DNA from: Liolophura sinensis
Taxonomy: Eukaryota; Mollusca; Polyplacophora; Chitonida; Chitonidae
Direction: 5' to 3'
DNA length: 64,000 bases
Assembly: GCF_032854445.1 (NCBI RefSeq)
Contig: NC_088306.1
Coordinates: forward strand, 23,347,764-23,411,763
Shown one piece after another: positions 4,673 through 58,844 of this stretch. The notes under the pieces were generated by a model, which worked only from the letters and a program-made list of their open reading frames with translations, did not search any database and was not told where the DNA came from. Within the stretch, counting starts at the first letter, position 1. The number at the start of each line of letters is the position of its first letter. The position numbers and the translations under genes are program-made.

Positions 4673-6104
4673 TTCACTGAGAAATGTAGTGGCGTGTTCA
4701 ATTTTCATGTTGTGTTACGGTTGACCCTAGTGCCGAAAAACCTTATGGTGAATGATTTACACAGCCTTTGATTTCCTAATTAATGACTTCATTAATTCTA
4801 TGGTGGTTTACTTTGAACGTTGTTTTGGAAAATTGGTCTTGCCATTATTGACCATGAACGTCCATTTTGATTGACGGGTAGTACACGAACGTCTGTTTCG
4901 ACGCTTAGATTGAAACTGATATTCAGTCAAATCTATAAGCACCACATTTGACATTCCTCACTCGTCACCTTAAATGTCATGGTCGATAATCGATCAATAC
5001 TGACTTAACTTAATTGGACTAACAGCATTATCTTATTGTTTCAAGTCTAATCATTCAATAGTATTCTGATAAAGATTACACTAGAAATATTTGAGCAAAA
5101 TCGGACAAGCGCGTGTACACTTAGAGCCGCACTTCCTATACAAATCTCTGACGCACACGAGGGGCCAAATTCCAACAAAGTTAATCACGCAAAATAGAAA
5201 TTGGAAAACACTCCACAAAAATTAGTTCATAATGCTGTCCATAATTTGTTATAATGTAACTGTCGTTATTAGGTATTATACCATCTCCTGACATAGCCAT
5301 TTATCACCCACTAACATGGCTGCAGAACAACAACTGTAAACATGATGCCGAGCATGGCGTCATTCGTTTATACTGAATCATGACGAGCGAGCGTCACTGA
5401 GGGACATCGCGCGATGTTTTCCGGAAATGTCCGAGCGAGAATATTGATCTTTGTCGTAGACTGGATGGAAGTGTTGTGATGCCATGACCCGATTCCCTTA
5501 AAGCTGTCACAATACGCCACGCGGTTAAGGCAAAACATATCACGGACTTGCGGAAACGTTGTCAACATAGATTTTTTCTCCTTCGCGGTAATCGGGTATA
5601 ATGCCAAAGCGGCTATTAGATGATCGATAGTATATGATACAGTACCAGAAGACTGGGCGCACAATGATGATTGTTGTCGACTTGCCATTTATGCAAGGCC
5701 TCGCTGTTCTAAACTGACAGAATGGCATTGGAATGCTCAGTACTGGAGGCAGTGTCAAGGCATATGTTCATACTGGGAAACAAGAGTCTGGCAGCTTAGC
5801 ACATTATAAATCATATTAAATGCGTCAGACAAAAGCACTGTTATTCAAATATGCAAATGCATTCAATTCTAAGACAAGAGGCAGGTTTCGTCAACTGCCT
5901 GCGCAATTAATATGCAGAAAATCACAGCCCGACTTGGGACTTAGTGTGGTTTTATGGGGCTCAATGTGATTCATAGAACGCTAGCTAAACTAAAGCTCTC
6001 TGCATTGGCAGTCATCATATAATTCCATTACATGCATAGAGAGCATAATGACAAGTTATTATAATCATGGACAAATGTGGTGACAGTGCAATTGCAATAT
6101 GAAC
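4673..6104. other. No recognisable gene
   Basis: Moderately AT-rich. An open frame on the minus strand (5688 to 5368, 106 codons) lies in a locally GC-richer, CpG-containing patch, but I recognise no domain and see no supporting splice structure, so it is not called as a gene. Confidence 0.4.
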
Positions 6105-6152: not shown

Positions 6153-6230
6153 TGTATTATACACCAGACTGCTTGTTTATAGAGAACGTCGCGTGAGCAA
6201 CGAGATGGCAACACACCAGATACTGCCGAC

Positions 6231-6430
6231 NNNNNNNNNNNNNNNNNNNNNNNNNNNNNNNNNNNNNNNNNNNNNNNNNNNNNNNNNNNNNNNNNNNNNN
6301 NNNNNNNNNNNNNNNNNNNNNNNNNNNNNNNNNNNNNNNNNNNNNNNNNNNNNNNNNNNNNNNNNNNNNNNNNNNNNNNNNNNNNNNNNNNNNNNNNNNN
6401 NNNNNNNNNNNNNNNNNNNNNNNNNNNNNN
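6231..6430. other. Assembly gap (200 N)
   Basis: A run of exactly 200 unknown bases. The round number suggests a placeholder length, so open frames crossing it are meaningless. Confidence 0.99.
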
Positions 6431-7389
6431 CAAGGGCATTCATAAAGAAAAGACATTTGTTAATGAAATCCAAAACAAAGAAACGAAAAAATTCTTACCC
6501 TTCTACGCTCATTTTCGTGCACTATCAATCGATGGAACGAACAATCAGGGGTGTCGAATGGTCCAGTTGTATAGGCTATACTATCACTGCACACACACAG
6601 TTCTCCGTGATCTTCAGCCTGTCTCATTCACACGCACAAACACAGCAACAAAAACATTTCCATGCGGCATTACGCAAGTCCAGTGCCCGGAGAAATCCCT
6701 AGCATTTGCCGCCCTTCTCGGAGAATGACGGAGCGATTTGATGCGTGCTCCGGCTCGTGGAAAGTGCCGAAGTGCTGAGAGGTTTCAGCACTCTGACACA
6801 ACTGTCGTCTGCCTTAATCAAATATCAGGCGCGTGGCAGATGTTTGAAGAAATCATTAACAAGAGTGTAATGCCAACTCGAATATTAATCTTATAGGGGG
6901 CACATGTGTGTAATATCGGTGGTCTTCGTGCAAATAAGATGTTCATTTTTAACCTTTTTTTCTAAAGAAAATAAGTTCCTCTTATGTCTTAGATATTAAA
7001 AAACACTCTATTACTATCATCTAGATAGAAAATGAACATAGAAAAAGGGCTACATACTAAATAACGAATATGTGTAACGTGCATGTCACGGAGCAAGAGC
7101 TTAGATAGGAACCTATATAAGGCCTCAGACATGATAATATTAAAGGAGACTTAGGTCGATCAATATGCAGCGAACTGTGCAAATTTTTTCGTCGCAAATG
7201 TGCGAATTGCAAATTTATGTCCGAATGCATGGAAGAAACCTGTGACGTGCTCGTTTTAGTAGAGAATTTATTCTGATTACAAAAAAGAGTTTTATTAAGC
7301 GTCACTCTTCTTATTACGTATAGGTTTAGCCAGACAAACATTCTCCATATGGTGCGCTCGCAATTCCGGTCACCTGTATACTACTTCCA
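6431..7389. other. No recognisable gene
   Basis: AT-rich sequence with only short unsupported open frames. Confidence 0.4.
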
Positions 7390-7920
7390 GCCGTTCTGTG
7401 TCGAAGTCCACAACAGAAGCAAAAATAGTAAAAATTTTGCTGAAAATGAACCGATATGGCCCAATACTGGAATTGCTGTGCAAATTTGTCTCGTCATGTG
7501 CCATGCTTATATTTAAAATAACAAAACCGATTAGAAGAAAGTCTGCAAAACTGTTGATGTCCATTATAATACAAAACGATAATGATTTGGTTGAAAATGA
7601 ACATAACCAGCACAAAAGTCGACTTTGGCCTAAAACTCGTAATGCTAAAGGCATGCGCGGGTACAGGCACAGAGTTTCAATTCTGTCCAAAACTTGACAA
7701 TGGTGGCCATAATTTTGTTGAAAATTGATGACACAGTCCCGAACCTGGAACTCGATCTTTAACTCGCCATATAAAGCTATGTACTAAGTTTCAGTTTACA
7801 ATAACGAACCACTGGAAAATGTCAGCAAAAAACATGCGTATCTCGTCATATAATGAAGCTATTTACATAGTTTCAGTTCAGTATGATACCCGTTTGAAAA
7901 CGTAGTCAGCAGAACTGTTT
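7390..7920. repeat. Probable interspersed repeat with internal echoes
   Basis: Phrases recur in the same order at spaced positions: 'ttttgctgaaaatgaac', 'ttggttgaaaatgaac', 'tttgttgaaaattgatg', then 'gaacctggaactcgatctt', 'aagctatgtactaagtttcag' and 'gaagctatttacatagtttcag'. This modular repetition looks like an old dispersed repeat rather than a gene. The open frames on both strands (7398-7697 plus, 7690-7370 minus) have no recognised motif. Confidence 0.4.
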
Positions 7921-12534: not shown

Positions 12535-13300
12535 CTTTATGTATTAAAAGCGTGTAAAATGGTGTCTTAAAAAGTCTGCAAATCTGCTAAAAACGGATGT
12601 TTAAAAATCCATTCAAAAAGTGTTAATAATAATATGTCTAAAAATTGTTTATAATTTATTAATTAATTTATTTATTTGATTAATGTTTTACTCCATGCTC
12701 AAGAATATTTCACTTATACGACGGCGGTCAGTATTATGGTGGGAGGAAACCGGCAGCGCCTTGGAGAAACCCACAACAATCCTTCTTACGTACGGCTGAA
12801 GATTTACTCAAAGCGACCGCATTGGTAGGCTCCTAGGTCATTGCGCTGCGCTGGCGTGCTACCCCGCCCCCCCCCCCCCCCCCACCCCCACCCACGCCAC
12901 GGAGGCCTCTAGAGTTTCTGTCTGAGAAGAGTGTTCAACAATCTGTTAAAAAAGTGTGTACATCACAATTTATTGAAAAAGTATATCTAAAATGTATTTA
13001 AAAAGTGTGAACATCACAACTTATTGAAAACGCATGTATAACAATCTGTTTAAAAAGTGTTTAGATCACAATTTATAGAAAAAAAGTATGTGTAACAATC
13101 TATTTAAGAAGTGTGTACATTACAATTTATTGAAAAACTATATATAACAATCTATTTAAAAATGTATAGCAGCCTGTTTTGAAAGTGTGTAAGAATCTAT
13201 TAAAAATGCTTATCAACCTGCTCAAAAACTGTGTAGGTATCTGTTTAAAAAAAGACAGTGCATAAGAATATGCTTAAAATGTGCTCGAGAATCTGTTTAA
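12535..13300 (+). repeat. Degenerate tandem array (about 50-bp period), split by a SINE
   Basis: Phrases 'aacaatctatttaaaaagtg', 'tgtacatcacaatttattga' and 'aaaaagtatatctaa' recur with a spacing of roughly 50 bases and many differences. Similar 'taaaaagt.tg' phrases occur on both sides of the SINE at 12658-12906, so the SINE inserted into an older array. Confidence 0.6.
12658..12906 (-). mobile_element. SINE family A with C-tract expansion
   Basis: Reads tail, 3' domain ('ctcaagaatatttcacttat'), body and B-box complement, to 'gccacggaggcc'. A long C homopolymer interrupts the head near 12866-12885. Confidence 0.85.
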
Positions 13301-14155
13301 CAGACAGCGCATAAATGTGCATATGTACAGCTGTAGGGTCTTCAATCCTCCACGTGCTTGCAGTGTATATTCAACGTCAGTTTCTTAAATGTCACTGTTA
13401 TTTTTATTTTATTTTTTTGCGTGTGTGTTATTTCCCGCGTCACATTTCCAAAAAAGAACTTTCTGGTTCCACTACTTCTTGCTCTGACATGGAAACTGAA
13501 TATTTGTTAGCCTTTCATGTGATTCGGATGATATTTTGACATCACTGAATCCAACAGTTGGATAAAATTCTGCGGAGGGTTAACATTTCTGAAATGCGTG
13601 TATAAGCACATTATTCATCTCTATTTTATTGGACACCGTATATGTTAATCCTTATCATTGCTAATCAAAGTAAAGCACACAAAATACTGGATCGCAAAAT
13701 CAGACAAGTTTTCATGACTACCTCATTAATTCTCCGTCATACAAGGGAGATAATTTACAAGGTCGCGAACGGGCCGCTATGTTAAGATAGGCAGAATAGG
13801 GAGGTGTGTAGAAGCAGACATTCCAACGAAACATTTAAGTCATAGTATTTAACATATATGTCTGTGTAATTTAGAAATTTCGTCGCAAAATGAACAGTAC
13901 ATCAAATGATGAGAAATGGCGGGACTCCATGACGAGATAACTCTTCGTACAGACTAAATTATCTCCCCTGATTTTACATTTTAACGATGCTTAAAACAAT
14001 TGGCACTTGTTTATCAGGATAATACGGCCAGCTGATAAAAGATTAGTTCCAGAAATACGTGTCATTTGGCTCTTTGGTTACATGTAACTTGTCACCTGAT
14101 GGGCAAAATTTAACATAACAATAACTGTTGTACTGGTACTTCCTGATCACTCAGA
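13301..14155. other. 5' flank of the first tandem gene copy, repeat-bearing
   Basis: From about 13640 the sequence resembles 18950-19300: shared phrases are 'aagcacacaaaat', 'gagaaatgg.cggactccatgac' and 'actaaattatctcccttgattt'. The duplicated genomic segment therefore starts upstream of the promoter. Paired 'aagggagataat' and 'attatctccc' motifs occur at 13744-13755 and about 13957-13970. Confidence 0.5.
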
Positions 14156-14355
14156 ACCTTTGTTTCTGACGTTGTGTTGGACGTTAACTTTGACGTCACT
14201 CTGACCTCAGTCGGTAGCGTCGTGACCTCTCGTTACCTGGAGACGTCACGTGGGCGATTGTTACTTTGTTGGCTGCTCTTTATCGAAACGTTGACGTCGT
14301 TTCAATGAAATCTTTCTAGATTTAAAGGTTTGAGCGCTTTTATTTGCTGATTTAG
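14156..14355 (+). promoter_or_regulatory. CRE-rich promoter of tandem gene copy 1
   Basis: Contains a perfect cAMP-response-element palindrome TGACGTCA at 14191-14198, a composite ACGTCACGTGGGCG with E-box CACGTG at 14247-14252, and TGACGTCG at 14292-14299. The distances of 56 and 101 bases from the first site are identical in the second gene copy. No clear TATA box at the expected place is obvious. Such sites are known targets of CREB/ATF bZIP factors and CACGTG of bHLH-Zip factors; binding here is inferred. Confidence 0.7.
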
Positions 14356-16480
14356 ATGGAGAAGCTGTACTCCTATAAGAGTAAGTAGCGTCAGTTTGCT
14401 GTTGTAATATACGTTAGATGGTAAATATGGGAAGAGAGCAGCTTTCTATAGCAATTTTACAAGTAGAAGTCAAAAACTTTCCTTTAGCTCAGGTACCAGG
14501 ATCACGAAGTTGTCTAAGACCTTGATGTTTTATGCAGTGCTCAGGAATATTTCACTTATCCTACGGTACTCAGCATTATGGTGGGAGAAACCCACGACCA
14601 TCCGCAGGTTGCTGACAGCCCTTCCCACATAGGGGTTTATTGGTATAAAGATAGCCTATACTTTTAAACTTCGATGAACAGACCCGAGATTTCTTTCAAT
14701 TCTGTTGATCGGAAGTTAAGCCTAAGTTCATGGTGAACATCATGACGCCATGACGTTCAAGGGCATTCATTTCGTACCTAAAGAGATCTTTAGTGTGTAA
14801 ATGATGAGCATTCCATGGCTCGTCATATCCGAATGGAATTTTGATAGTCTAGAAAAACAGTTACAAATTTTTATTGTCTTTTAGCACTTTCTTATCTAGG
14901 GCTTGTATCTCAAAAATAGATTTTCGACCCCATAAATTCATTAATTGTTACAACGTGTTTGGAATAACTTTCTACAACAACAATGTTATCTTGTCAACTA
15001 TTTCCTGCTCAGACTATATTCTCTTTGTGATACCGCAGGAATGGAAGATCTGGATAATGACCCCACGCCCAAAAGTAGTAGTTCCGAGGAGGACCACATA
15101 TCGACTGGGCCATTCTCAGATGAGGATATCTGGGCGGATTTCGACTCGGCCATAGAATTGGGCCATCAGCTGAGAAGACAGGATAAGCTAAGAGAACAGG
15201 GCCGAGATTACTGTGCCAAGGCTACAAGCCCCACGGTAGGGTTTGGGGGCAGTGACAGTGGAGTGGGCGCAAAAAGCTCCACAGTTGCATATGCAGACGA
15301 GAAGGTTTCTAAGGCCCCCGATAACGAAAAAGAAAAGATTTGTTCTTCAGTTAATCTGAGCAAATCCACAAAGTTTGACCAAAAAATAGAGGAAGGTGAC
15401 AATAGTCTTTCAAAATACGAGAAGGGCAAGCAGGGATATGATGGTGAAGAGGGTGAAGATTTCGGGATAAGTTTACCACAGGTGATCACCAGTGACAACA
15501 TTCCAGGACACATAAGTCTTGACGACAGCCAAGTTCAGAATGCCATTGCCACCAAAGAAAAAGTCTGCGCACAAGCTCCTCCTAACGCTAGAATCAAAGA
15601 TCCACGGTGTCCCAAGATGATCCCAAAACACGTCGCCTCTGCTTGTGCAAAGTTCACGGTCAAAGGTGAGCAAGGCCTGAAAGAAACTACCTACAACCCC
15701 GAAGAACAAAACTCCTCCGATTCCAGTGACGACCAGTCCGATGAGTCTTCTGATTTCACGGACCAAGAAAAGCCGTCCGGATTCGGAATCACGTGGTTCT
15801 GGCCGGAGACTGAGCCGGTCACCATGCCCCTGTGTAACGTGCCCAGAATGCTGGGTCTGGGCATGGACGAATGGCTGACCCCTACACACGGCTCCTATGA
15901 CATCTCAGACAGTTCGCTCAGCGACTCGGCAGACGACGAGAGAAGTGTCACGTCGAGTTCAGATAAGGAGGTATCTCCCAGAATAACCGCAACTCAACAC
16001 CAAGTGGTGGACGAAGAGGTCAGGCGTAAACGACTTGTGAGTTTGGAAAGCTCCGAGTTAAATGGCCGACAGCACATCCTCAGAGATGCACCTCAGCCTT
16101 CTGACAAGATCACATCGAAGAAGACTGTCGAAAAGAGAAAGGTCAGGATCCACCGTTCTCACGCTGAGATTCCGAACTTTGATGGAAAATGGCAGAATGA
16201 CACGCTGATTCTGGACAGGTGCACTAAAGCGTTAGCCAGAAAGAAACACCACACGACTGCCGTGGTTCATTCAATCGGTGATTCCGTAAAAGAGGACAGG
16301 AAGTCACAAGACGGCCAATCGGAAAACAGCGTCTTTGCAAATGACACATCAGCGAGGTCTTGTGTCACAGAACACAACCACAAAGGAAGAAGTTTACGTC
16401 AAGGATTGCGGCAGACAGCACGGCGGGTTAGAGAGAGGTTTCAATCTTTTGGAAAGATGTGTACAGCATGCTGCAGATAA
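14356..16480 (+). CDS. Uncharacterised acidic, Cys-tailed protein, tandem copy 1 (488 residues)
   Basis: Two coding exons are predicted: 14356-14380 (MEKLYSYK plus one base; donor gtaagt) and 15039-16480 (acceptor taccgcag). The continuous open frame starts upstream in the intron, but the conserved splice sites and the equal length of both copies favour this model. I recognise no known domain. The N-terminus is Ser/acidic (SSSSEED, FSDEDIWADFDSA). A central block has DSSDDQSDESSDFTDQEKP followed by the aromatic TWFWPETEP. A basic patch KALARKKHH follows, then an Arg-rich C-terminus RQTARRVRERF ending CTACCR, a Cys cluster that could be lipidated or bind metal. It is probably largely disordered. 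Promoter CRE sites suggest cAMP or stress induction. Function is unknown. Confidence 0.75.
14526..14629 (-). mobile_element. SINE family A fragment in intron 1 of tandem copy 1
   Basis: Tail-side part only ('ctcaggaatatttcacttat' to 'gctgacagcccttcccaca'). I see no counterpart at the matching place in copy 2, so it probably inserted after the duplication. Confidence 0.7.
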
Positions 16481-17345
16481 GTAGCAATAAGAGTTGCGCC
16501 AAACAGTGTGGGATTAAAGAGGTGTGAGAGGCAAAATATATTCAATTGGATAAGTAATCAACTACTTTGGATTGATAATAATTTTATATCATGTGTTTTC
16601 TATGTTGTAAATAAGACAAGACACAGTACTTTGAAATTCTGCCAGATTAAAGGGAAATTAAAGCGAAAATAAAGAAAAGGTAGACGTCAGTAACGGAAAC
16701 ATCGTAGACGTCGCGTGATACCTGCCCTTGAAAAGATGTTTCCATGAATCAATAACGTTACAAATTCTCAGGCCAAACAGCGGTTTGCTTTCGAGCACTA
16801 TACCATCTAAGTGTCGGTATGTCCCTTCCACACGACCCCTCCATCCACCACCCTCTTTTACACCTTGGAATCTGTATGCTTGCCGCCATATGCACCACAA
16901 TGCAATGTGCGCCTCGATCACGACGTCATTAGGAATTCCCGTTATTCATTAAAATATAGCTAATGCGGAATGACTCCACATTTGCCTAATAATATGTCAC
17001 ATAACTTCATGTACAAACGCGCGAAAGCCTAAACTCCTATACGATCATAGCCTGTATGTATGTGCACCAAATGTCTATGTCAAAACTGCAATGACTACAG
17101 TGTCAGGTGTATTTTGAGACATATATATGTGGAAGTTCTTAGATTGGCGTAAAATGTTCTGTAAATGACTACTGCCTCCTTCCTGATTGATGTTATCTGC
17201 CTGTTAGAGCTTGCCTATTTATACGTATTAATGGATTTTGGTCGTGTGTGTTCTTGGGTCATATTCATTTTTTCTTTGATGTTTTTTCTTTGTACAATTT
17301 GCCGTTTTGCACACATTCTGTTTTCGAAATAAACTGGTACAAACG
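16481..17345 (+). other. Probable 3' UTR of tandem copy 1 with poly(A) signals
   Basis: AATAAA occurs at 16668-16673 and at 17328-17333. The second sits in 'aataaactggtacaaa', and the phrase recurs after copy 2 (24709 onwards), so it is the better-supported 3' end. The stretch 16680-16930 contains two GACGTC palindromic cores and no evident gene. Confidence 0.55.
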
Positions 17346-17750
17346 CACCCGAAAGTGTTTTGTTTACTATTATTAGTTGTACAATTAAAAACAGCTTATA
17401 TAGTAACTTGTTCGACTGGAGGTTAAAATCATAGTGGAGAAAGTCTCAATCGTATGACGGTGCCTTTTTTACAAAACTTTGTATTTCAAATTTCTCATGA
17501 TCTGTCTGGGAATCGTATGTAATGGCATAATTCGACTTTGTTCAAGAGAGAAAATTTGACAACTTGATTTTTGAGGTTTTGTGAAATTGGGATCAGGTTT
17601 ATAGTGGTAGAAAGCTGGGCAGACATCCTCAACCGTAACCAGTTAGTTACCTGACAAATTTATTTTCTTAAAGTCGCAGTCAAGCCATCAGGAACTGAAT
17701 TCTAGCCCACAAGGATCTCCCTGCCCATCGACTAAATGCATGTATGTAAA
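17346..17750. other. No recognisable gene
   Basis: AT-rich spacer between the 3' end of copy 1 and a SINE. Confidence 0.4.
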
Positions 17751-18103
17751 TGTGCTCGGGGTTTTTCGTCCTACTTACAAATTTTTCGGTCATATGACGA
17801 CGAGGAGTCATTAGGTGTGTGTACATATCGTGTGCCTTCTTGTAGCAGAGCACGTCAATGCCGTCGAATTTATTGCCGCCACTTAAATACCATACCGAAG
17901 ACACCAGACATTACACCCCACCCAGTCACATTATTACTGACACTAGGCTGTTTACTTGCTCTTACTTCTCACTGCTGAGCGCCAAGCGAGAAGGCAACAA
18001 GTACCATTTTACAGCCTTTGATATGACCCGACCAGGGTTTAATACCGGATTCTATCGGCTTTGAGGTGGACGCTCTATCCATTAGGCCACCGAAGCGGTG
18101 ACA
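17751..18103 (-). mobile_element. SINE family B variant
   Basis: Begins 'gtgctcggggttttt', with 'caaatttttcggtcatatga' and 'cgacgaggagtcattagg', then a body of 'ccgaagacaccagacat' type. It ends in a tRNA-like head on the minus strand, where GGTGGCCTAATGGATAGAGC is the A-box-like part and GGTATTAAACCCTGG the B-box-like part. Confidence 0.75.
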
Positions 18104-18373
18104 AACGGCAAAAAGTAATCTTGGAGAGCCCATTGGCCCTGGTTAGAAACAAAAAAATTGAAATATTCAACACCTGGTTTTAAAAGAATTATTAATTGTT
18201 AAGTACTAAAATAACGATAGGATAAACAATTTTTTAAACAGGATTTTAATAAACAAAACCATGGATTAGGAAACACTGTAAGGCACACAAAGCACCGACA
18301 TCAGCGGTTCATGCTTATCTGGATGATTAAAACAAGGGAGGTAATTAACAAGGTCGATAGGATAGACGGTCAG
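18104..18373. other. No recognisable gene
   Basis: AT-rich. The phrase 'aacaagggaggtaattaaca' near 18332 matches the module upstream of copy 1. Confidence 0.4.
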
Positions 18374-18428
18374 AGAGTAAACCAGCATGAACTGGACTTG
18401 AACTCACAGCTAACCAACTGGAGAGCCT
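18374..18428 (-). mobile_element. SINE family A fragment
   Basis: Only the B-box side remains ('ccagcatgaactggacttg' and 'aactcacagctaacc'). Confidence 0.6.
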
Positions 18429-18719
18429 GTATGAGAATTATAGTGACTTATTTATTTTAACTCGTTTGTTAAGTGTTTGTTTCCTGTTTGTTCCAATTTT
18501 GGACAGTATCATTCTTGGCAACTGCTTCCTTGTCCCGCTACGATATGGTTGCAGAACTACCAAAGTGGTTCAACCATAGCCATTTCTTTATTATTCACTT
18601 TCTTCCTTAAAGTTGAAAAACGTTTTCATATTTGCACACATTTAACGAAATTATAGTATCGGTATCAGGAAAATGTGTTCGTTTACTTAGGAAAAGGATC
18701 CCGCAAACAAACGATCGCG

Positions 18720-20165
18720 GTGTGAATCAGTGAGAAATTTCTGGGGAAATTACAATTCATGCGGACTGAATTATCTCCCTTGGTGACACATTTTGAGGAC
18801 GAATACCCAGTATGTTGAGGGGTTATAATTCCTCATTTCTCGTGTACTTCCGGCTGTTTTATTTTTGTTTATTAGCCAGCAGTTGTAAGCAAGGGTTGGG
18901 TGGAGCAGCACTTGTAAAATCCTTATCTGAACACATTGTTGATTTTTTTTTAAACAGACACCGTACATGATAACCCGTATATATACTTATGAAAGAAAAG
19001 CACACAAAATGCCAGATCTGAATGTCATGACACTACGGTTATCCCATCAACCACACTGCTCAGCTCGGACAAGAGAAGTTGGGAAAGGGTGAACAGAGCT
19101 GGGAAATATTTTATGTAGATGAAGACATTTGAACGAAAAATTAAAATCATATTATCGGGCATGAATGTCTGTGTGGGATGAAGATGTATTCGCAGTGTGT
19201 TCACCAATGAGGAATGGTCGGACTCCACGACAAGATAACGCTTCGTTGGGAATTGATTTATCTCCCTTGATTTCACATTTTAACGATACTGAAATCAGGC
19301 GATAGATATGCACGGATGTTTAGGGTTTTCCGATGTACTTAACAATGTTTCAGTCGTATGACAACGAGTATGCTGCGGCTTTTTGTGACAGGTTCAATCC
19401 ATGCTGCAGCATATGAATGGATTAAAATTATTGTCGGACAAGATAATTAAAAACATGTAAGCTCTTGAAAAACATTGCTGTTGACTGTATCATTCTGTAC
19501 TTTAGGAATAAATGCCAATGGCCTTCGAGGCCCTCGCGTGTCGCCTGATGGATATACTTTACTATAACTAGAGCTACGTGTATGTGCATGAACACATCGT
19601 GGGCAGTCATCGGCTCTAGACAGCTAGACTCGAAGGATTTCGATTGGCCGTGTCATAACGTTGCACCAAATGGGTAGTGTTAACCGCCGGAAACTATATA
19701 TGTTAATGTAATTTGTACATTCGCAAAGAAACAATTACTGTGTGAATGAGTGAGAAATGGTCGGACTCTATGACCCGATAACTCTTCGTGCGCACTAAAT
19801 TATCTCCCTTCATTTCAAAGTTTTCACGATATGCGATTTGTGAGTGGATTACAATTTTTGTCTCACACGACAATAGGACGAGATGACAAACGGTATCCTC
19901 AAGAAAAACATGCCTCTCATTGTCTCTTTCCGTTTTCATTGTTTGCTTTATAAATACAACACAATGACTTTCAGAGCCAACGCTTGTCACGTGATGAAGA
20001 ATATTTATTATAACTTGAAGTGTTGTACATGTACATATTTCAACTCGGAACACCGCTTCAGCTGTCAACGGTTCCTAGAGAGTTAACTGGGAGGATCTCC
20101 GACAGGCCGCGTCATGAGCAGTGTTAACCGCCGGAAACTACTTATGCGCATGACATTGAGTCAAA
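18720..20165 (+). repeat. Repeated 5'-flank modules between the tandem genes
   Basis: Three related blocks (about 18722-18800, 19200-19285 and 19740-19830) share 'gtgaatgagtgagaaat', 'cggactc.atgac..gataac' and 'ttatctccctt.atttca', and also match 13905-13990 upstream of copy 1. A second motif, 'gtgttaaccgccggaaacta', occurs at about 19676 and 20127. They look like serial duplications of the gene 5' flank. Confidence 0.55.
19318..19405 (-). mobile_element. SINE family B fragment
   Basis: Contains only the conserved 3' domain ('tacttaacaatgtttcagtc' then 'gtatgacaacgag'). Confidence 0.5.
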
Positions 20166-20320
20166 GCACTAAGTTGAAAGTCTATTATACAGCTCGTAGT
20201 CAGTTTGAGATTTAGCCGTATCTCAGCTGACTCGTGATTGATATCAATCGCTAAAAGAATTCCACTTATTTTTAGATTATTTGCTGTGAAATGTAGATCC
20301 TATAACGCTAAGCATAACAA

Positions 20321-20536
20321 TATTTATTTATTTGATTGGTGTTTCACGCCGTACTCAAGAATATTTCACTTACACGACGGCGACCAGCATTATGGTGGGT
20401 GGAAACCGGGCACAGCCCGGGGGAAAGCCACGACCATCCGTAGGTTGCTGAAGGACCTTCCCACGCACGGCCGGAGAGGAAGCCAGCATGAGCTGGACAT
20501 GAACTCACAGCGACCAACTGAGCCACGGAGACCCCC
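20321..20536 (-). mobile_element. SINE family A
   Basis: Tail complement 'tatttatttatttgattgg', 3' domain, body with 'gggcacagcccgggggaaag', B-box complement and 'gagccacggagacc'. The region between B-box and A-box is shortened. Confidence 0.85.
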
Positions 20537-20838
20537 ATAACAATATCGAGATTCCGACCGATTCCATGACGTAGACCTACACGTATTCTGCGTTCGTGGA
20601 AAGTGATGGGGGTGGGAGGCATGGGGTGCAACTATTCATATTCATAAGTCTTTTTCTACAAAACTCGACGTTCTGCAGTATCGTGACGTTGTGTCACAAT
20701 TCATACACGTACGTAGTGAACCTACACCCTTTGTGACCTCCATATTCTGTTCCACAATGGATGGACTGTCGTCCGAGGTGAGTTCGTGACGACAATAGCC
20801 GAGCAGTTCCGCATGTACAAACTCCCCAACAAAGCTGT

Positions 20839-21047
20839 AACATTTTTTCTGACGTTGTCTTCGACATTATCTGTGACGTCACTCTGACCTCTGTTCATAA
20901 CGTCGTGACCTCTAGTTACCCGGAAACGTCACGTGGGCGATTGTCACATTGTTGACAGCTCTTTATCGAGACATTGACGTCGTTTCAGGAAAATCTTTCT
21001 AGATTTTGCCGGTTTTAGCGCATTTATTCGCCGATTAGATTGAGAGG
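20839..21047 (+). promoter_or_regulatory. CRE-rich promoter of tandem gene copy 2
   Basis: TGACGTCA at 20874-20881, CACGTG within ACGTCACGTGGGCG at 20930-20935, and TGACGTCG at 20975-20982. The spacings of 56 and 101 bases equal those of copy 1. The whole stretch from the first CRE to the splice donor aligns with copy 1 at a constant offset of 6683 bases. Confidence 0.7.
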
Positions 21048-24038
21048 ATGTATTCCTATAAAGGTAAGCAGCGTTAGTTTGCTGGGGAAGTGGAGAGGTT
21101 TTCTTTAATTCGGGACCCAGAGTCATGAAGCTTTCTTAGGCTTAGATCGGACGTTCTCTTCAGTTGTAGTATCATTCCTGGATTTATATTTGAACATAAA
21201 GGTTAATTTTTATTTCGGCGGAATTCCGTATAGTTGTAATATCCTTTGCTCAAATCCCGGTATAACTCAAAGTAAATTCCTTACCCTGTAAACATAGATT
21301 TCAAATAGATTCGGTGTGTGTTGCTAGAGGCTGTCAGACTATATGACTGCTGTCGAGCTACTCGTCTTTTCGTCTCTGTCTGTTCTTCGAGACTCAAGGT
21401 TTAGAGACAAGACGCTCAAACCACAGACACCGAAAACATCTCTGACCGCAACTGTAACTTTAGCCGCTATCCGACAATTTCGCACAGCATTTACGGTAAA
21501 TTCTTAGCGTTATACTGACAATGGACAGTAAAGCGTTAAAGATAATCATACAGCTGTCTTAAATTCAGGTAGAACTCCCGAACACAATCAAAAACGTTAC
21601 AGATCATTAGTACGGTATGCTAGATCTGTTTATCTTAAATGCTTACATAAGCATTTCACACTCGATGTTTCTTTCAATTTTGTTGATCGGAAGTTGGCAC
21701 TTTGGCTTAGCATACAAGACAGTTTAAAGAATCGACTCAGCTCAACTGGTCGTATAAGGTTGGTTTCTGTCGCTGATGACCATACAATTTTAAAGTGGAG
21801 AAAACATAAAAACCACATAAAGTGCAGATGAAAGAGTGCAAAAAGTTAGCTGTAAATGTGATGTTGACATCTTTTTTCAATTGTTCTTTAAAGAGACATA
21901 TTTAAAGTATATATTGTCTTTGAGTAAAATGCGGAATTTGGTCTTTTCAGCTGACAAATTTGTTCAACCTGGATTTTGATATAGTTTTAACGTATTTATA
22001 AATATTATTAAAATTCCGATTAAATGCATATATGTTTGGATATCAACAACAAATGTACATTCAAGTAAGTTTATTAGACATGCATTACATCCTTAAAAGA
22101 ATATTATTATGCAAAGACGACCTATACCAAAAAGTGGTCCCAAATACCCACCATGCATAAATATTTTCAAATACCCTCTTCTAATTGAAGAAAAAATGGC
22201 GAAAAAAATTAAAAGCCATATTTGCAAATAAGTTTTAAATTCAGTTGAATCGCGTTTTTATTTCGCGTACGCGAGCACTGAGCATGGCGCCACTTACGCC
22301 ATTCCTTGCGTATCTTAACAAATTTAAATGCATTCATGATGTACATTCTTTAACTCGTCACATCTGATTGGAAGCTTGATGGTCTACAAAAACTGTTACA
22401 AATTTTTTCTGTATTTAAGCACTTTCTCAACGAGTCTGATATCGCTTAAAGAGATTTTTTTCACATGTACATGTATCGATTTATTGTTACAGAGTGTTTG
22501 AAAAAACTTTCTACAACAACAATGTTATCTTGTCAACTATATCCTGTTCAGAATACATATATGTTTTCTCTCTTTGTGATACCACAGGAATGGAGGATCC
22601 GGATAACGGCCCCACACCCAAAAGCAGTAGTTCCGAGGAGGACCACATATCGACTGGGCCATTCTCAGATGAGGATATCTGGGCGGATTTCGACTCGGCC
22701 ATAGAATTGGGCCACCAGCTGAGGAGACAGGACAAGCTGAAAGAACAGAGCCAAGACTACAGTGGACAGGTAGCAAGCCCCACGGTAGGATTTGGGGGCT
22801 GTAACAGTGGAGTTGGCACAAAAGGCTCCACACGCGCATGCGCAGACGAGATTGTTTCTAAGGCCACCAATGACGAAAAAGAGAGGGTTTGTCCTTCAGT
22901 AAACCTGAACAAATCCACAAATTTGAAAACTGACCAAAAAACAGAGGAAGGTGTCACTAGCCTTTCAAAATTCGAAGAGTGCAGGCAGGGATATGATGGT
23001 AAAGAGGGTGAAGATTCCGGAATAAGTTTACCACAGGTGATCTCCAATGACAACATTCCACGACAGATAAGTCTTGACGACAGCCAAGTTCAGAATGCCA
23101 CTGCCACCAAAGAAAACGTCTGCGCTCAAGCTCCTCCTAAAGCTAGAATCAAAGATCCACGGTGTCCCAAGATGATCCCAAAACACGTCGCCTCTGCTTG
23201 TGCAAAGTTCACGGTCAAAGGTCAGCAAGGCCTGGAAGAAGTTACCTTCAACCCCGAAGAAGAAGGCTCCTCCGATTCCAGTGACGACCAGTCCGATGAG
23301 TCCTCTGATTTCACGGACCAAGAAAAGCCGTCCGGATTCGGAATCACGTGGTTCTGGCCGGAGACTGAGCCGGTCACCATGCCCCTGTGTAACGTGCCCA
23401 GAATACTGGGTCTGGGCATGGACGAATGGCTTACCCCTACACACGGCTCCTATGACATCTCAGACAGTTCGCTCACCGACTCGGCAGACGACGAGAGAAG
23501 TGTCACGTCGAGTTCAGATAAGGAGGTATCTCCCAGGATAACCGCAACTCAACACCAAGTGGTGAACGAAGAGGTCAGGCGTAACGGACTTGTGTGTTTG
23601 GAAAGCTCCGAGTTAAATGGCCGACAGAACATTCGCAGAGATGCGCCTCAGCCTTGTGACATATCGAAGAAGATTGTCAAGAAGGGTAACTCCAGAAACG
23701 CCAGAAACCACCGTTCTCACGCTGAGATTCCGAACTTTGATGGGAAATGGCAGAATGACACGCTGATTCTGGACAGGTGCACTAAAGCGTTAGCCAGAAA
23801 GAAACACCACACGACTGCCGTGGTTCATCCAATCGGTGATTCCGTAAAAGAGGACAGGAAGTCACAAGACGGCCAATCGGAAAACAGTGTCTTTGCAAAT
23901 GACACATCAGCGAGGTCTTGCGTCTCAGAACACAACTACACAGGAAGAAGTTTACATCAAAGATTGCGGCAGACAGCACGGCGGGTTAGAGAGAGGATTC
24001 AGTTTTTTGGAAAAATGTGCACAGCTTGCTGTCGATAA
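21048..24038 (+). CDS. Uncharacterised acidic, Cys-tailed protein, tandem copy 2 (488 residues)
   Basis: Exons 21048-21063 (MYSYK plus one base; donor gtaagc) and 22588-24038 (acceptor accacag) give 488 residues, exactly as in copy 1. The intron is 1524 bases against 658 in copy 1, and its last 250 or so bases are still similar. The first exon starts three codons later than in copy 1: copy 1's ATG aligns with ATT here, and this ATG aligns with CTG there. The same blocks are present: FSDEDIWADFDSA, TWFWPETEP, KALARKKHH and C-terminal CTACCR. Main differences are in the segment after the first 60 residues and around residues 370-395. It is probably a functional paralogue, since frame and ends are intact. 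Function is unknown. Confidence 0.75.
21064..22587 (+). other. Intron 1 of tandem copy 2
   Basis: Segments near 21664-21700 ('tttctttcaatt.tgttgatc' then 'ggaagtt') and 22330-22560 match the shorter intron of copy 1. The middle is AT-rich sequence absent from copy 1, so one intron has expanded or the other has shrunk. Confidence 0.55.
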
Positions 24039-24735
24039 GACATTCAAAATATGGGAAAAGCCTTATGGGATTGAAAATGGGTAGGAGACAAACCATAAAT
24101 AACATTGGATTAAGATCTTTGGTTCGTTGTCAGAAAAGCCATCATCATATATAGCTATATATCCGTTGTGTTTCGAGAAAAGTTTTTACGTCCACATTTT
24201 ACTATGAAACTTCATCTGCTTTTAGCGACAATAACACAATGGAAAACGAGATTAACGGGTAAACATTGCTTCAAAAGAATCATATTGAGGTTCTGCGCAA
24301 ACTGTTCTCCTATTCAGGAAAAAAAAACTCATACTGAATAAAACTTCACCGTATTTCAATGGAACAGTAACAGGGCAAATATTGTCCACCCGAAAAATCA
24401 GACAACGTTCCGGTCTTCTTCTTAACTCACATCAAACACCATAACGCAAAGAGCACTCCGGTAATGACGCATTTATGACTAATGCGGATTGGAGGACATG
24501 ATAGGACTTCATGTACAATTTCACACACGCTTCATTGGTGGTATTACAGCTCCAACAGCTTCAGAGCAAGGCCCGTTTTGACATCTTCCTATCTGTAAAT
24601 GCCGATATTAGCGCAGTGAGTGAAGTAAACAACAATTTCTTTTTTGTTTGATGTCAATTTATCTATCATTTCTTGTCAAAATATTTTTTTTTATTACTGT
24701 GCTGTTTGAATAAAACTGGTACAAAACTTAATAAG
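24039..24735 (+). other. Probable 3' UTR of tandem copy 2 with poly(A) signal
   Basis: AATAAA at 24709-24714 is followed by 'actggtacaaa', the same phrase as after copy 1. No other gene is visible here. Confidence 0.5.
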
Positions 24736-26560
24736 GTTCTTAATTCTTTTCTCTGCCACACTTCGGTAATATTGCAGCAATATCCTGGACTTCAAAAGTG
24801 TGTTAACTAATAATGCAGGGTATTAGGTCATATTATATATTTAAAATTTTGGTCAAACTCTGCAGTCCACCAATATCCAACTATAACAGCACCAGTTTTA
24901 GTTTATATTTAATATACTGGTACACAATTATTCTAGGCTAAATACAAAATGGAAGACTTGGCTTAAAGTTAAAATTGGTATCAAGTCTTGAACCAGTTTT
25001 GAACAACCGGTCCCTGGCGATCATATTTCTTGAAACAAAAGGTATACCCTAAATATTCGACCACAAAAACAGCAGTTTTGGAGAGAGGGTGAGTGGGGTC
25101 GCACTTAACAATTTTTCAGTCATATGAAGCCATTTTGGAGGCAAATAAATGCCAGGAGATATTACTTCTGGTGCTAAAGCTCACATTTTCCCAGTAGGAT
25201 ATCATCCTACCTTCCAAACACTTTTCTAAAATCAACAGAACTCCCGAATCTGGAAAAATGAACAACTTACTCATAGAAAAATATTAGGTCATTTTGGGTA
25301 ATCAGTAATCACTTACGCGCTAATGTCCACACGGACCATGTACAATACCTCAAGTTCCTGAGTTCAGTGATCCGTTGGAACCACTTGTTTAAAACTGTAA
25401 TGGTGGTTAATTTTTTTCAGCTAAAGTTAAAGTTCTTTGAGGCACTAAATAATAAAATGAACATGTATGTCACATAAATCAAAAAAAAGGCAATCAGTGA
25501 ATTTCGGCACTTCACCTGATTTACTTCAATACCTGGACTTGTTACCTCCCCTGTTCTAATTTTGTGTCGGTCAGGTCAAAAGTCTGGACTACTCGCTAGT
25601 TTCAGCTGGCCACAGACCCCCATTAATTTTCCATAAGCGACAATGTTAACTTAAGCGCTGTAGCTCAGCCCCAAACATTCCGTGGCCAATAAGCTTTGGT
25701 GCATGCCGGCAGCTGGGAGGGGTGCCTAGCAACGCCAAGGGGACTTCATACGCAGCCTCATCACCATCTATCTCCTTGTGTCCTCTCGCCCAGAATTTGA
25801 TACTTTCATCATTAAAACTCACACCTTCCCAAAGCTTAGACAATTCCATCATTTTGATACCAAGCATGCACCAAAAACGTCAGGCTGGCGGCAAAAAAAA
25901 AAGGAATTTACATCCTAAAATACACAGAATTACATCCCGAAAAACGGAAGGTGTAATGGGGGTCTGTGGCCAGCTGTTATTCCAAATGCGACTGAGCTGT
26001 TAGTGGGCCAAATTATCTCCCCTGTTCTGCTATAGGATTTAAGGTTTTGTGTTCTGATCAGGGCAGTGTAGGTGGCAGTGTGATGTAGGAAACTGTTTTT
26101 GATATGAAGTTAAAATTTGTAACAGGCCTCCTGATGAGGAAATGCTGCATACTAAACACTGAACAAACCAACAGGATCTGTTGGCTGTATAAACTGTAGA
26201 TAAATACACCCTTTAATGAATAATGTAAACTCAAGCAAAGTTTTATACATACTAGTATATTTACAATTTTGTACTGACCCTTTTATCACACAATCTACAT
26301 TTTTATACATCGTTTTGTTTATGACTGAAAAGGTCTGTTCTTCGTGAATCTTTACAAAAACTTTTATGATAAAAAATATGTGTTATGAGAATATCAAAAT
26401 TACAGCATTATGAGAAACGGGATGTTCAATAGTTTTGAGTGATAATACAATTTTCAGCCCACAAGAGAAGAGCTGATTCAGACTGTCCTTTGTAACGTTG
26501 CTCTGTAGGAAGTCTTACAGAAAAAATGTCAATAAGTTTGAGTGCCCAGTGCACATCTGG
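24736..26560. other. Intergenic between tandem copy 2 and PCID2 3' end
   Basis: Contains a SINE family B fragment near 25085-25128, a MITE family 2 relative (about 25115-25300) and 'ttatctccc' motifs near 26010. ATTAAA on the minus strand near 26213 could be the PCID2 poly(A) signal. No coding region is supported; the overlapping open frames at 25646-26003 show no family. Confidence 0.45.
25115..25300. mobile_element. MITE-like element, family 2 (diverged)
   Basis: Shares 'gaggcaaataaatg', 'ggtgctaaagctcac', 'ccttccaaacacttttctaa' and 'aaaatgaacaacttactcat' with 2639-2860, and ends 'aggtcattttgggta'. Confidence 0.5.
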
Positions 26561-26566
26561 ATAACA

Positions 26567-26768
26567 TCATCATGACAATATCATCACGACAATATCATCA
26601 TGACAATATCATTATGACAATATCATCATGACAATATCATCGTGACAATATCATTATGACAATATCATCATGACAATATCATTATGACAATATCATCATG
26701 ACAATATCATCATGACTATCATCACGACAATATCATCATGACAATATCATCACGACAATATCATCATG
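26567..26768 (+). repeat. Minisatellite, 14-bp unit, about 14 copies
   Basis: The unit tcatcatgacaata carries c/t variants (tcatcacgacaata, tcattatgacaata). On the minus strand it starts right at the PCID2 stop codon, so it forms the beginning of that gene's 3' UTR. Confidence 0.9.
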
Positions 26769-29700
26769 GAAATGGATTTTGCTTGCTGACAACAAGCTTC
26801 TGGTGGGTGTGAGAAATATAGCCTTTGATCTTGTTCTGAAAAACCAAAGAAAAAAGAAAGAAAACATGGTTAATGAAGTGTGCTGAGAACAGATTTTCAG
26901 TGATTATACCAGCAGTAGCTATTGGGAGTTCAAATTATGGCACAATCCACACAGAAATATCTGTTCCTTTCAGTACATAGCGAAAACACACCAGGTGAAA
27001 TACCCACAAGTTCTTCATAGATAAATGTAATATTTCCTAACGAGTACAGAATTATCACATTTGTTATTACACTTTACATTACTGATCTTTGACCCATATC
27101 TTGTTTTATTTAATCATACATATCTCCTACATTATTGTGCCACGTTTTCGCAAATATTTTTGGCCTGTCTGTTTTTCATTTCCATCCCGTAACTCTTCCA
27201 ACTGGATGCGTACATATAAAGTTTTACATATTTAACAATTCTTTTTATTCTGTTTGGTTGTTTGGGCAAAAATCTAAATCATTTTCATCGCTGTCTCAAT
27301 GACATATGCATGCATTATTAACAGCAAAAGTCCTATTTTCTTTAGACTTACATCATAGATAAGGTTTGCCAAGATACACTGGACTTCATCATTGTCAACA
27401 TCGTCTTCCTGAAACCGAAAGAAAGATGCCCCCTGAATCCTACAATTTAATATATATGCACATATTTTCGAAACAGAAGTATGTAAATTCAGAAAAAAAT
27501 CGGATTCTCCAACACATGTAATACTAATTCAAGTACCCTAGTTCTTCAACCTTTTCGCATATGAAAGAGCAATTTTCAATGCCATATATGCCCATTCTTA
27601 ATCAGATTCTGGAGACAAAACTAAATTTCTAGGATTGGCGAGTTTCAGGGCTCCACAAAAAGTGTAACTTTATCACTCTACACAGAATAATGCCTTCAGA
27701 ATATGTCCGAATAAACACCTTGCAAACATGCACAAAGGTTGATTAATTACAGTAGGCTTATAATTTCCTTTTACATGTACATGTATTTAAGTTTTATAAC
27801 CTCACAGCCAGGTATTTTGTCTGCTGCCTTGATCATGATCACTGCACAGAATATGCCCGAATAAACACCTTGCAAACATGCACAAAGGTTGATTAATTAC
27901 AGTAGGCTTATAATTTCCTTTTAAATGTACATGTATTTAAGTTTTATAACCTCACAGCCAGGTATTTTGTCTGCTGTCTCGATCATGATCACTGCACAGA
28001 ATATGCCCGAATAAACACCTTGCAAACATGCACAAAGGTTGATTAATTACAGTAGGCTTATAATTTCCTTTTACATGTATATGTATTTAAGTTTTATAAC
28101 CTCACAGCCAGGTATTTTGTCTGCTGCCTTGATCATGATCACTGCACAGAATATGCCTGAATAAACACCTTGCAAACATGCACAAAGGTTGATTAATTAC
28201 AGCAGGCTTATTCTTTCCACTTATATGTACATGTATTTAAGTTTTATAACCTCACAGCCAGGTATTTTGTCTGCTGCCTTGATCATGATCACTGCACAGA
28301 ATATGCCCGAATAAACACCTTGCAAACATGCACAAAGGTTGATTAATTACAGTAGGCTTATTCTTTCCTTTTAAATGTACATGTATTTAAGTTTTATAAC
28401 CTCACAGCCAGGTATTTTGTCTGCTGCCTTGATCATGATCACTGCACAGAATATGCCCGAATAAACACCTTGCAAACATGCACAAAGGTTGATTAATTAC
28501 AGTAGGCTTATACTTTCCACTTAAATGTACATGTATTTAAGTTTTATAACCTCACAGCCAGGTATTTTGTCTGCTGCCTTGATCATGATCACTGCACAGA
28601 ATATGCCCGAATAAACACCTTGCAAACATGCAAAAAGGTCAAGAAATTACAGTAACAACAAGAATTTGCGTTTTGGTAGATTTGCCAACATCAGGGCTTC
28701 ATATGTTTTAGTGTTGGCAGAGACATGTCCTCAAGATGTGCTTAAAACAACATATAAAAAGGTTGAAGAAACAGGGTAGCCTACCGTTGGGATTATATCC
28801 CGAGCAAACTTACCTCTAACATTTTTAGAGCAGCAGTGAAGGCTTTCACAGGTAATTGATGAGTTTTCAGTATTAGGTACCTGAAAATAAAAAGGTAAGA
28901 CCTGTCCTTACTTGCTCTACTCCATGAGCGGGATTTCAATCCCAAACCTAAAAGAAAAACAATTGATAAAATTGTGAAATACATTTTTAGAAAAGCGTCA
29001 TCGATCTTTAGATGCATCTTCTCTGTGTTAGATCTTGTGTTCGGCTAGCTCAGGAAGGCTACTGCTTTCACTGTATAGGGGAAAGAGGTTGATGTTGTAT
29101 TGGGCAATACTTTTCATTTATTTGATTTATTTATGGATTTGATTATTGTTTAACACCATACTTAAGATTCTTTCACATTTATATGTATGATGTCAGTTTT
29201 ATGATTGGAGTAAACCACCAACCTTTGGCAAGATGCTGACAAACTTTCCCACATGTGATTTACAGATATGCACACCATATTGGTGGCAGACAGGTGATCT
29301 TCAACAAGCATTAGGCTGCACAAATAACAGCACGAAGGTCATCGATCGACTACGTCTAAAGCTGGGTTTGAACTTGCACCTTGTGTGTCCTAGCGATGGA
29401 AACAAAAGTGCTTTTAACCACCAGACCAAGGACATTTCTTTCATATTTCTCAAAAAGGATCCTCTTTTTCTTGAAAATATAATTCAGACTATGAAATTCT
29501 GGCATTACCTTAGAGAGAAAGAAAACCATACAAGGTCACATATATCATATGCCAACACTGTATTTCTGTCACACTCCTATAGGATACCAATATTATGATT
29601 ATAGGTAATCATCACATTGAAGATCTTTTATTTTTGTTCTAATCTTAGTGTTTTGTTCTGACCTTCCAAACTACTTACACTTTTTTGAACAGATTTCTGT

Positions 29701-57494: not shown

Positions 57495-58005
57495 GCTTTC
57501 AGAATGTACGTGATATATATATACCAAAGCCATGATTTCCAAAAAGAAATTACAAAGGCACTTTCAGAATGTGTATGATATATCCAGCAAAGCCATGATT
57601 TCCACAAAGAAATTACAACTTTCAGAATGTGTATGATACATCCAGCAAATCCATGATTTCCACGGAGAAATTACAAAGGCACTTTCAGAATGTGTCTGAT
57701 ATATCCAGCAAAGCCATGATTTCCACAAATTACAAAGGCACTTTCAGAATGTGTATGATACATCAAGCAAAGCCATGATTTCCACAGAGAAATTACAAAG
57801 GCACTTTCAGAATGTGTCTGATATATCCAGCAAAGCCATGATTTCCACAGAGAAATTACAAAGGCACTTTCAGAACACATATGATGTATCCAGCAAAGCC
57901 ATGATTTCCACAGAGAAATTACAAAGGCACTTTCAGAATGTGTATGATACATCCAGCAAAGCCATGATTTCCACGGAGAAATTACAAAGGCACTTTCAGA
58001 ATAAG
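57495..58005 (+). repeat. Minisatellite, 63-bp unit, about 8 copies, downstream of CCNC
   Basis: The unit is built from 'tgtatgatacatccagcaaa', 'gccatgatttccacagagaa' and 'attacaaaggcactttcaga'; some copies are shortened. 63 is 21 codons, so both strands stay open across several units. It may lie in the CCNC 3' UTR: an AATAAA follows at 58110-58115. Confidence 0.92.
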
Positions 58006-58844
58006 TTCCGGAACTAAAATTGAAAGTTTTGGCACCACAAGAAATATTTTAACATGTTTTATTTGCCTCCAATATGGGGCGAAATTTTAGGTCACTTATC
58101 ATTTACTGTAATAAAACAACTTTGATCTAGTTTGTGTGTTTCCCCGAAAGCTTACGGCAGAATTCAGTCACGTGTGTGTATATGATATCATGGATGTGCA
58201 GGGCCTAAGTACTGTTTGACAAGTGTGTAGTTTGAGCAGTGGTACAAATATGGAATGTTGTTAAATCGTCTCTCATGTGCGTGTGGATGAAGTGTAAATT
58301 GCATGCTGGATTTCCAGGCGTCTTAATTGTCTGCAGAAGCCCTGAGTTTCCGCCTCATTATGAAATTGTCTCGACATAGACATGCATAACACAAGGTATA
58401 GCACTTCCTATGTTCACATGGACAGAGGTATTTGTCATTATTTTGGTATTTTGCCTGGAAATACAGAGTCATGTAGTCTCCAGTTACATGTAATTGAAAA
58501 GAGGTTAATAAAAAAAATATCCATCACACTTAGGGCTGGCAAGAAGAAGAAAAAAATACCCATAAACCTGACTGGACTGAAAAAAAGAGACATTATTGAG
58601 TGTGGTAAAGCACTAATTGAATACGTAAATCAATCGCCAGGAATTGAACTTGTGTGTTGTAAGCTGAATTAAACCTTAAATTACATGGGCTAGATATATT
58701 CTCCGTGGAATGCAGCAATATCACAGTTGTTCCGGATTCTGTCGTCTCTTTTTTTTTTTTTATTTATCATGAATAAAATTCTTCATGATATTTAATTATG
58801 CCCAGTAGTATTTATTTTCCCTCAAAGGGAGATTTGGTGTTTGT
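58006..58844. other. No recognisable gene; MITE family 2 fragment
   Basis: A fragment resembling one end of MITE family 2 lies near 58060-58105. The 96-codon open frame at 58382-58672 has a Lys-rich stretch but no recognised domain. Confidence 0.4.

Follow-up and report, generated by a model that had tools for sequence, protein, structure and literature searches.

Three described systems come closest to the genes reported here. In R7BP (RGS7BP), a vertebrate protein, the twin C-terminal cysteines are palmitoylated and a nearby polybasic nuclear localization signal governs shuttling between membrane and nucleus, the protein being nuclear when it is non-palmitoylated (PMC2048962). WxxF peptides, for example that of NECAP 1, bind the α-ear of AP-2 (PMC3794858). 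In the mollusc Aplysia, ApC/EBP is an immediate early gene and a downstream target of ApCREB1 (PMC2546398). Features that recall all three were found in a gene family of the chiton Liolophura sinensis, two copies of which lie side by side in a stretch of 64,000 nucleotides (C12:23347764-23411763, contig NC_088306.1; hereafter the window, in whose numbering positions are given unless another sequence is named) of the 609,464,459-base, 632-contig assembly. The original prediction had described the two copies as a tandem duplicate of an unrecognised gene. The duplication is real. That prediction missed the wider family of five or more loci and a shared promoter footprint rich in cAMP response elements (CREs).

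The tandem pair is part of a family with five or more loci

A six-frame search of the genome with copy 1 returned the pair itself, a broken copy in four pieces 5.9 Mb off on the same contig, and two places on another contig, C10. The first C10 place (12173381-12174958) holds an intact paralogue with a 526-residue frame and 24% protein identity to copy 1. The second, at 12185102, is a relic with three TGA and one TAG codons inside the match, the first stop falling at residue 156; its splice donor reads GC instead of GT, and nothing there matched the C-terminus. In the spliced model of the broken C12 copy the first stop comes at residue 147, and a TGA stands in place of the first tail cysteine of copy 1. 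The stretch that interrupts this copy looks like a dispersed repeat, because part of it is 79% like window positions 17752-17846. The family hence has at least five members: the tandem pair, a distant paralogue that is intact, and two relics. When the 609 Mb were searched with a degenerate pattern for DIWADF(D/E)SAIEL, the motif at the N-terminus, and up to 3 mismatches were allowed, five matches came up, all of them at family loci and all with 0 mismatches; the reversed control pattern gave none. Genome searches of this kind yield lower bounds and the assembly has gaps, so further, more distant members may exist. The family appears to be undescribed, and its genes may well carry model names in the published gene set of the species.

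Both window copies lie intact on the forward strand. In copy 1 the splice model places exon 1, coding for MEKLYSYK with an uncertain start, at 14356-14380, a GT-AG intron at 14381-15038, and the coding part of exon 2 including the stop codon at 15039-16480, followed by a probable poly(A) signal at 17328-17333. In copy 2 the corresponding modelled features are exon 1 (MYSYK, start likewise uncertain) at 21048-21063, the GT-AG intron at 21064-22587, exon 2 at 22588-24038 and the probable poly(A) signal at 24709-24714. All four splice boundaries have GT donors and AG acceptors (GTAAGT or GTAAGC, and CAG in both copies). The coding parts have a GC content of 50%, and the introns and 3' flanks 36.5%. 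A repeat search independently found the promoter block (164 nt, 86% identity, spacing 6683) and three blocks in exon 2 (88-96%, spacing 7549-7558), and these start-to-start distances bear out the predicted 6.7-7.5 kb between two genes on the same strand. The copies are about 83% identical over the promoter and exon-1 segment and 92% over the exon-2 coding DNA, so that the promoter, tiny first exon, splice sites and coding sequence are common to both, as had been claimed. The claim of a shared 3' end holds in part. The long BLASTN match extends as far as the stop codon, and the 3' untranslated regions are weakly alike, with 53.5% identity against a shuffled mean of 44% and maximum of 48% (10 shuffles); the same CTGGTACAAA follows immediately after AATAAA at 17328 and at 24709.

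When the exons are joined, each model translates into 488 residues with one terminal stop. This equality had been predicted, and it is partly a coincidence, as the exon-1 ATGs are out of register and the insertions and deletions balance. Exon 1 of copy 1 and that of the broken C12 copy read MEK(L/V)YSYK and continue in frame; in copy 2 an ATT replaces the ATG of copy 1, and the model uses an ATG three codons further on. In the two C10 members the aligned ~65 bases preceding the donor contain no ATG. Their proteins appear to start within exon 2, and exon 1 may therefore be a leader. The exon-2 ATG of both window copies (at 15041 and 22590) is a good alternative start, with a purine at −3 in the spliced form and a G at +4; it would give 479 residues in copy 1 and 482 in copy 2. 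The exon-1 start, on which the length of 488 residues rests, is plausible in the model.

A promoter footprint shared by the family

The promoters of all five members can be aligned. The promoter block of copy 1 (14160-14323, forward strand) contains the full CRE octamer TGACGTCA at 14191-14198 and a family footprint, GTTACCTGGAGACGTCACGTGGGCGATTGT, at 14232-14261, and that of copy 2 (20843-21006, same strand) contains the CRE at 20874-20881 and the footprint at 20915-20944. Counting TGACG and CGTCA, where a full CRE counts as two, the five promoters have 6, 5, 3, 6 and 6 matches in 245-270 bases. When the 64 kb were scanned in 6374 windows (260 bases each, step 10), 38 of these had at least five such matches, and every one of the 38 overlaps the two promoter blocks. 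A CRE or clustered half-sites near the start, the arrangement of CREB/ATF-regulated genes, is thus present.

The footprint, which contains ACGTCAC, was searched for in the genome as the pattern GTTACYNGGNNACGTCACNNGGGYGATTGT with up to 3 mismatches. This gave four matches, each free of mismatches and each lying upstream of a member. As the pattern was written from four family promoters, its presence there is by construction, and the search is informative in that it matched nowhere else in the genome. A control pattern had no match in the genome. The distance from the footprint to exon 2 is about 0.8-1 kb in three members and 1.6 kb in copy 2, which has a longer intron. Since its genome matches all lie upstream of family members, the footprint is unlikely to be a dispersed repeat, and its persistence in duplicates at 24% protein identity speaks for regulation as a trait that defines the family.

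Several repeats occur around these promoters. An element of ~75 bases (GATAACTCTTCGT..TAAATTATCTCCCTTGATTT) lies upstream of both copies, at 13910-13982 and, twice upstream of copy 2, at 19208-19280 and 19751-19823; the broken C12 copy has one upstream as well (84%). In that broken copy, at 5478-5844 of locus L009 between its exons 1 and 2, there are nine copies of a 41-base tandem repeat whose unit holds TGACGTCA, giving seven perfect CREs in an intron-like stretch of a dead family member. Beside the same copy (L009 1463-2182) there is a 69-base tandem repeat with 10.4 copies at 90%, which is open in two reverse-strand frames and one forward-strand frame.

Conserved blocks and constraint in the protein

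Three regions of the protein are conserved. The N-terminal block DEDIWADFDSAIELGHQLRRQDKLRE is encoded at 15119-15196 in copy 1 and at 22668-22745 in copy 2, the middle block, which includes FGITWFWPETEP, at 15740-15877 and 23298-23435, and a predicted basic amphipathic helix followed by MCTACCR at 16388-16477 and 23946-24035. The N-terminal DIWADF(D/E)SAIEL is kept at all five loci (with IWADFE in the C12 relic and IWADFD in the other four), and the block extends to ELG..LR..DK; the middle block and the C-terminal helix are common to the three intact members. When copy 1 was compared with the C10 paralogue, the N-terminal block scored 107 (shuffled maximum 53, 0/2000) and the preselected middle block FGI..W....P..N.P......G.DE scored 72 (maximum 61, 0/2000), while the whole middle scored 75, a value reached by 8 of 2000 shuffles. 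The C-terminal 60 residues of copy 2 scored 68 against C10 (maximum 43, none of 2000 shuffles); the end segments were preselected, a choice for which these shuffle counts are uncorrected. The C-terminal cysteine cluster and the WFWPETEP block, both of which had been called distinctive, are conserved, but in C10 the latter is reduced to the middle-block pattern given above.

For copy 1 versus copy 2 we obtained a dS (synonymous divergence) of 0.138 and a dN (nonsynonymous divergence) of 0.070, with a dN/dS of 0.51 (95% interval 0.36-0.84, 500 bootstrap replicates). In the 13-residue core DIWADFDSAIELG, 6 of 7.8 synonymous and 1 of 31.2 nonsynonymous sites differ between copy 1 and C10, the single nonsynonymous change being an average over mutation paths between two leucine codons, as the residues are identical. 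For the last 30 residues the corresponding numbers were 16.5 of 21.2 and 28.5 of 68.8. These comparisons indicate that the N-terminal motif is under constraint.

The divergence between the two window copies is uneven along exon 2. Synonymous differences per site were 0.26 in codons 1-130, 0.057 in codons 131-460 and 0.36 in codons 461-484, with tract boundaries picked after the profile had been seen, and in a test with eight blocks 18 of 5000 permutations equalled the unevenness. Nonsynonymous divergence was 0.054 in the middle tract, 0.111 in codons 1-130 and 0.038 in the last 24 codons, and the longest identical tract between the copies is 101 bases, a length reached in 34 of 2000 shuffles. 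Such a profile fits interlocus gene conversion across the middle of exon 2, with constraint at the codon level as a possible alternative.

In each of the three intact proteins the hydrophobic moment over 18 residues peaks in the C-terminal segment (shuffle p 0.014, 0.009 and 0.004 for the best tail window, uncorrected for window choice), and the net charge there is +5 to +6 over 18 residues. The tail that follows has the form M-C-x3-C plus one residue, MCTACCR in the window copies and MCMGRCQ in C10, and the first and fifth positions of CTACC/CMGRC are invariant cysteines in the three intact proteins. Cysteines thus stand beside a basic stretch at the C-terminus, as in a palmitoylated polybasic anchor of the R7BP-like mode. 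Prenylated C-termini end in CaaX, CC or CXC, and the termini ACCR and GRCQ fit neither CaaX nor the CC/CXC type of Rab proteins. All three intact proteins fall on the disordered side of a charge-hydropathy plot. An AlphaFold2 model from two near-identical sequences had a mean predicted local distance difference test score of 36, which is weak evidence for disorder and too poor for a fold search, with low-confidence helices at residues 27-59, 163-175, 196-199, 382-402 and 436-478. Judged from these predictions, the protein is probably mostly disordered.

Database and literature searches

Pfam, with E up to 10, returned no family for the two copies, the C10 protein or two relic pieces. Sequence searches of the PDB gave nothing for copy 1, a three-sequence profile and two end motifs (copy 2 as a whole was left out), and one chance-level match for the C10 protein (E 1.5). 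In this respect the family remains as unrecognised as originally proposed. Pattern searches returned 11 stretches from IMG/VR and 69 from GTDB genomes, none of them relatives, so these sequences give no sign of a viral or bacterial origin. An iron-responsive element was looked for because of a paper on an iron-responsive chiton genome; Rfam had nothing over 13000-25200 at the gathering score, and hence no such element at that threshold. The peptide string WFWPETEP was found in no paper in open-access text.

Two known protein types were considered and rejected. PPP1R15 (GADD34/CReP) was suggested by KVRI followed later by a tryptophan, together with the CRE-rich promoter, but neither copy nor the C10 protein has a Pfam match to PF10488; the one match to this family that the genome search gave is on C6. 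The stretch QLRRQDKLRE was read by eye as BH3-like. The BH3 consensus has hydrophobic and glycine positions before the aspartate, and these are absent here.

Possible function and alternatives

We tentatively propose, as a possible rather than a probable reading, that the family encodes inducible, membrane-tethered disordered adaptors regulated by CREB/ATF, with a palmitoylated C-terminal helix and N-terminal docking of a partner. Basic leucine zipper (bZIP) factors of the CREB/ATF type would turn on transcription through the clustered half-sites. The C-terminal helix would lie on the membrane and be fixed there by palmitoylation of its cysteines, and non-acylated protein could possibly shuttle to the nucleus through its basic patches. 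The mid-chain would serve as a flexible tether, and the acidic-aromatic DIWADFDSAIELG would dock one conserved partner, for which clathrin-adaptor ear domains are one candidate. The motif has the W-x-x-F followed by acidic residues that is typical of adaptor-ear ligands, and by this analogy IWADFD is a candidate docking site, which is the weakest step of the mechanism.

A number of points weigh against this proposal. Besides the presence of the footprint by construction, the full CRE octamer taken alone is unremarkable, with two occurrences in the window against 0.76 expected and 17 of 100 shuffles reaching two, and the promoter of the broken C12 copy has the half-site ACGTCGC and was missed at the setting of up to 3 mismatches. 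Amphipathicity of the N-terminal segment is not significant (shuffle p 0.16, 0.17 and 0.30). WxxF is a short motif that occurs by chance, and an ear-binding peptide is shorter than the conserved block. The C-terminal cysteines might instead bind metal or do nothing, and the basic helix would serve just as well as a calmodulin site or a nuclear signal.

The last point leads to a nuclear regulator, in which the acidic-aromatic N-terminal block would form a helix for transactivation or for binding a co-regulator, and the basic patches and C-terminus would direct the protein to the nucleus or to DNA. The acidic block with its tryptophan and phenylalanine does lie in a helix predicted at low confidence, and basic stretches are present in copy 1 (KKTVEKRKVRIHR) and C10 (QRKGRRKNRRNV). 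However, Pfam shows no DNA-binding domain, and the common C-terminal features include amphipathicity and two cysteines besides net charge; we find this role doubtful.

The promoter might also answer to stress through ATF-type factors (ATF4/ATF6/XBP1) and not to cAMP via CREB, a proposal that concerns the switch only and fits either function of the product. The half-sites are clustered, and in both window copies the core, ACGTCACGTGGG, combines CACGTG with a CRE half-site. The CACGTG part is however absent from both C10 members, which share ACGTCAC only, and the sole PPP1R15-type match found sits on C6, so that no link to the pathway is shown. We hold a stress switch of this type to be unlikely.

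For the C-terminal segment, binding to calmodulin or another helix acceptor in place of the membrane would agree with its amphipathic periodicity and its charge, but would leave the invariant cysteines directly after the helix unexplained, and seems quite improbable. That the genes are dying, functionless duplicates whose frames are open through youth alone is very improbable: two of the five loci are broken already and dN/dS is just moderately below 1, but its 95% interval is 0.36-0.84, the N-terminal block is strongly constrained relative to a paralogue with near-saturated synonymous sites, and the promoter is conserved in both copies.

Returning to the tethered adaptor, a wider form of the proposal would describe mollusc-restricted, CREB-inducible, membrane-tethered disordered adaptors that have a long-conserved promoter footprint of their own and, in DIWADFDSAIELG, a new motif for binding a partner. 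The motif would have been retained as the remaining sequence diverged, and it would have travelled with the promoter through duplications so old that protein identity is down to 24%. In this full extent the proposal is speculative and rather unlikely to hold.

Other observations in the window and the genome

Downstream of copy 2 there are two tandem arrays, one with a 14-base period at 26526-26801 and one with a 150-base period at 27547-28746, whose copies are 63-97% like the reference. A run that translates as X, either a gap or withheld letters, lies within about 6180-6700. Among 128 stop-to-stop open reading frames of at least 70 residues in the window, 10 were scanned in Pfam as neighbours and none reached the curated cut-off. 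One of the ten, a repetitive open frame at 57700-58014, had 16 sub-threshold Pfam matches (best a ZFHX3-type zinc finger, E 9e-6), which probably stem from its internal repeats. Elsewhere in the assembly, C99 carries seven COX1 matches on the same strand at 8348-102844, spaced by ~15.5 kb, and C632 an eighth; this is probably an unresolved mitochondrial concatemer.

Comparison with known systems

Duplicated genes that have a conserved promoter and encode a probably disordered protein are ordinary, and the family is one among many uncharacterised, probably disordered animal protein families, if better anatomised than most. Its value lies in being well bounded and apparently undescribed, with a testable regulation (the CRE cluster) and two testable motifs. 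Should CREB induce it, nervous or stress responses of molluscs would be the place to look for it as a new effector.

The likeness to R7BP lies in C-terminal cysteines next to a polybasic stretch, here a basic amphipathic segment running into MCTACCR or MCMGRCQ. The two were set side by side by description only, and they differ in that R7BP is described as SNARE-like (PMC2048962), whereas the chiton protein looks disordered and belongs to no Pfam family. With NECAP 1 it shares W-x-x-F followed by an acidic residue, as IWADFD, in acidic surroundings; unlike there, the chiton motif is N-terminal, inside a longer block that reaches to ELG..LR..DK, in a protein with no Pfam domain. ApC/EBP offers a CRE-type promoter in a mollusc, as here, but the chiton product has no bZIP or other domain in Pfam, and its induction is a prediction.

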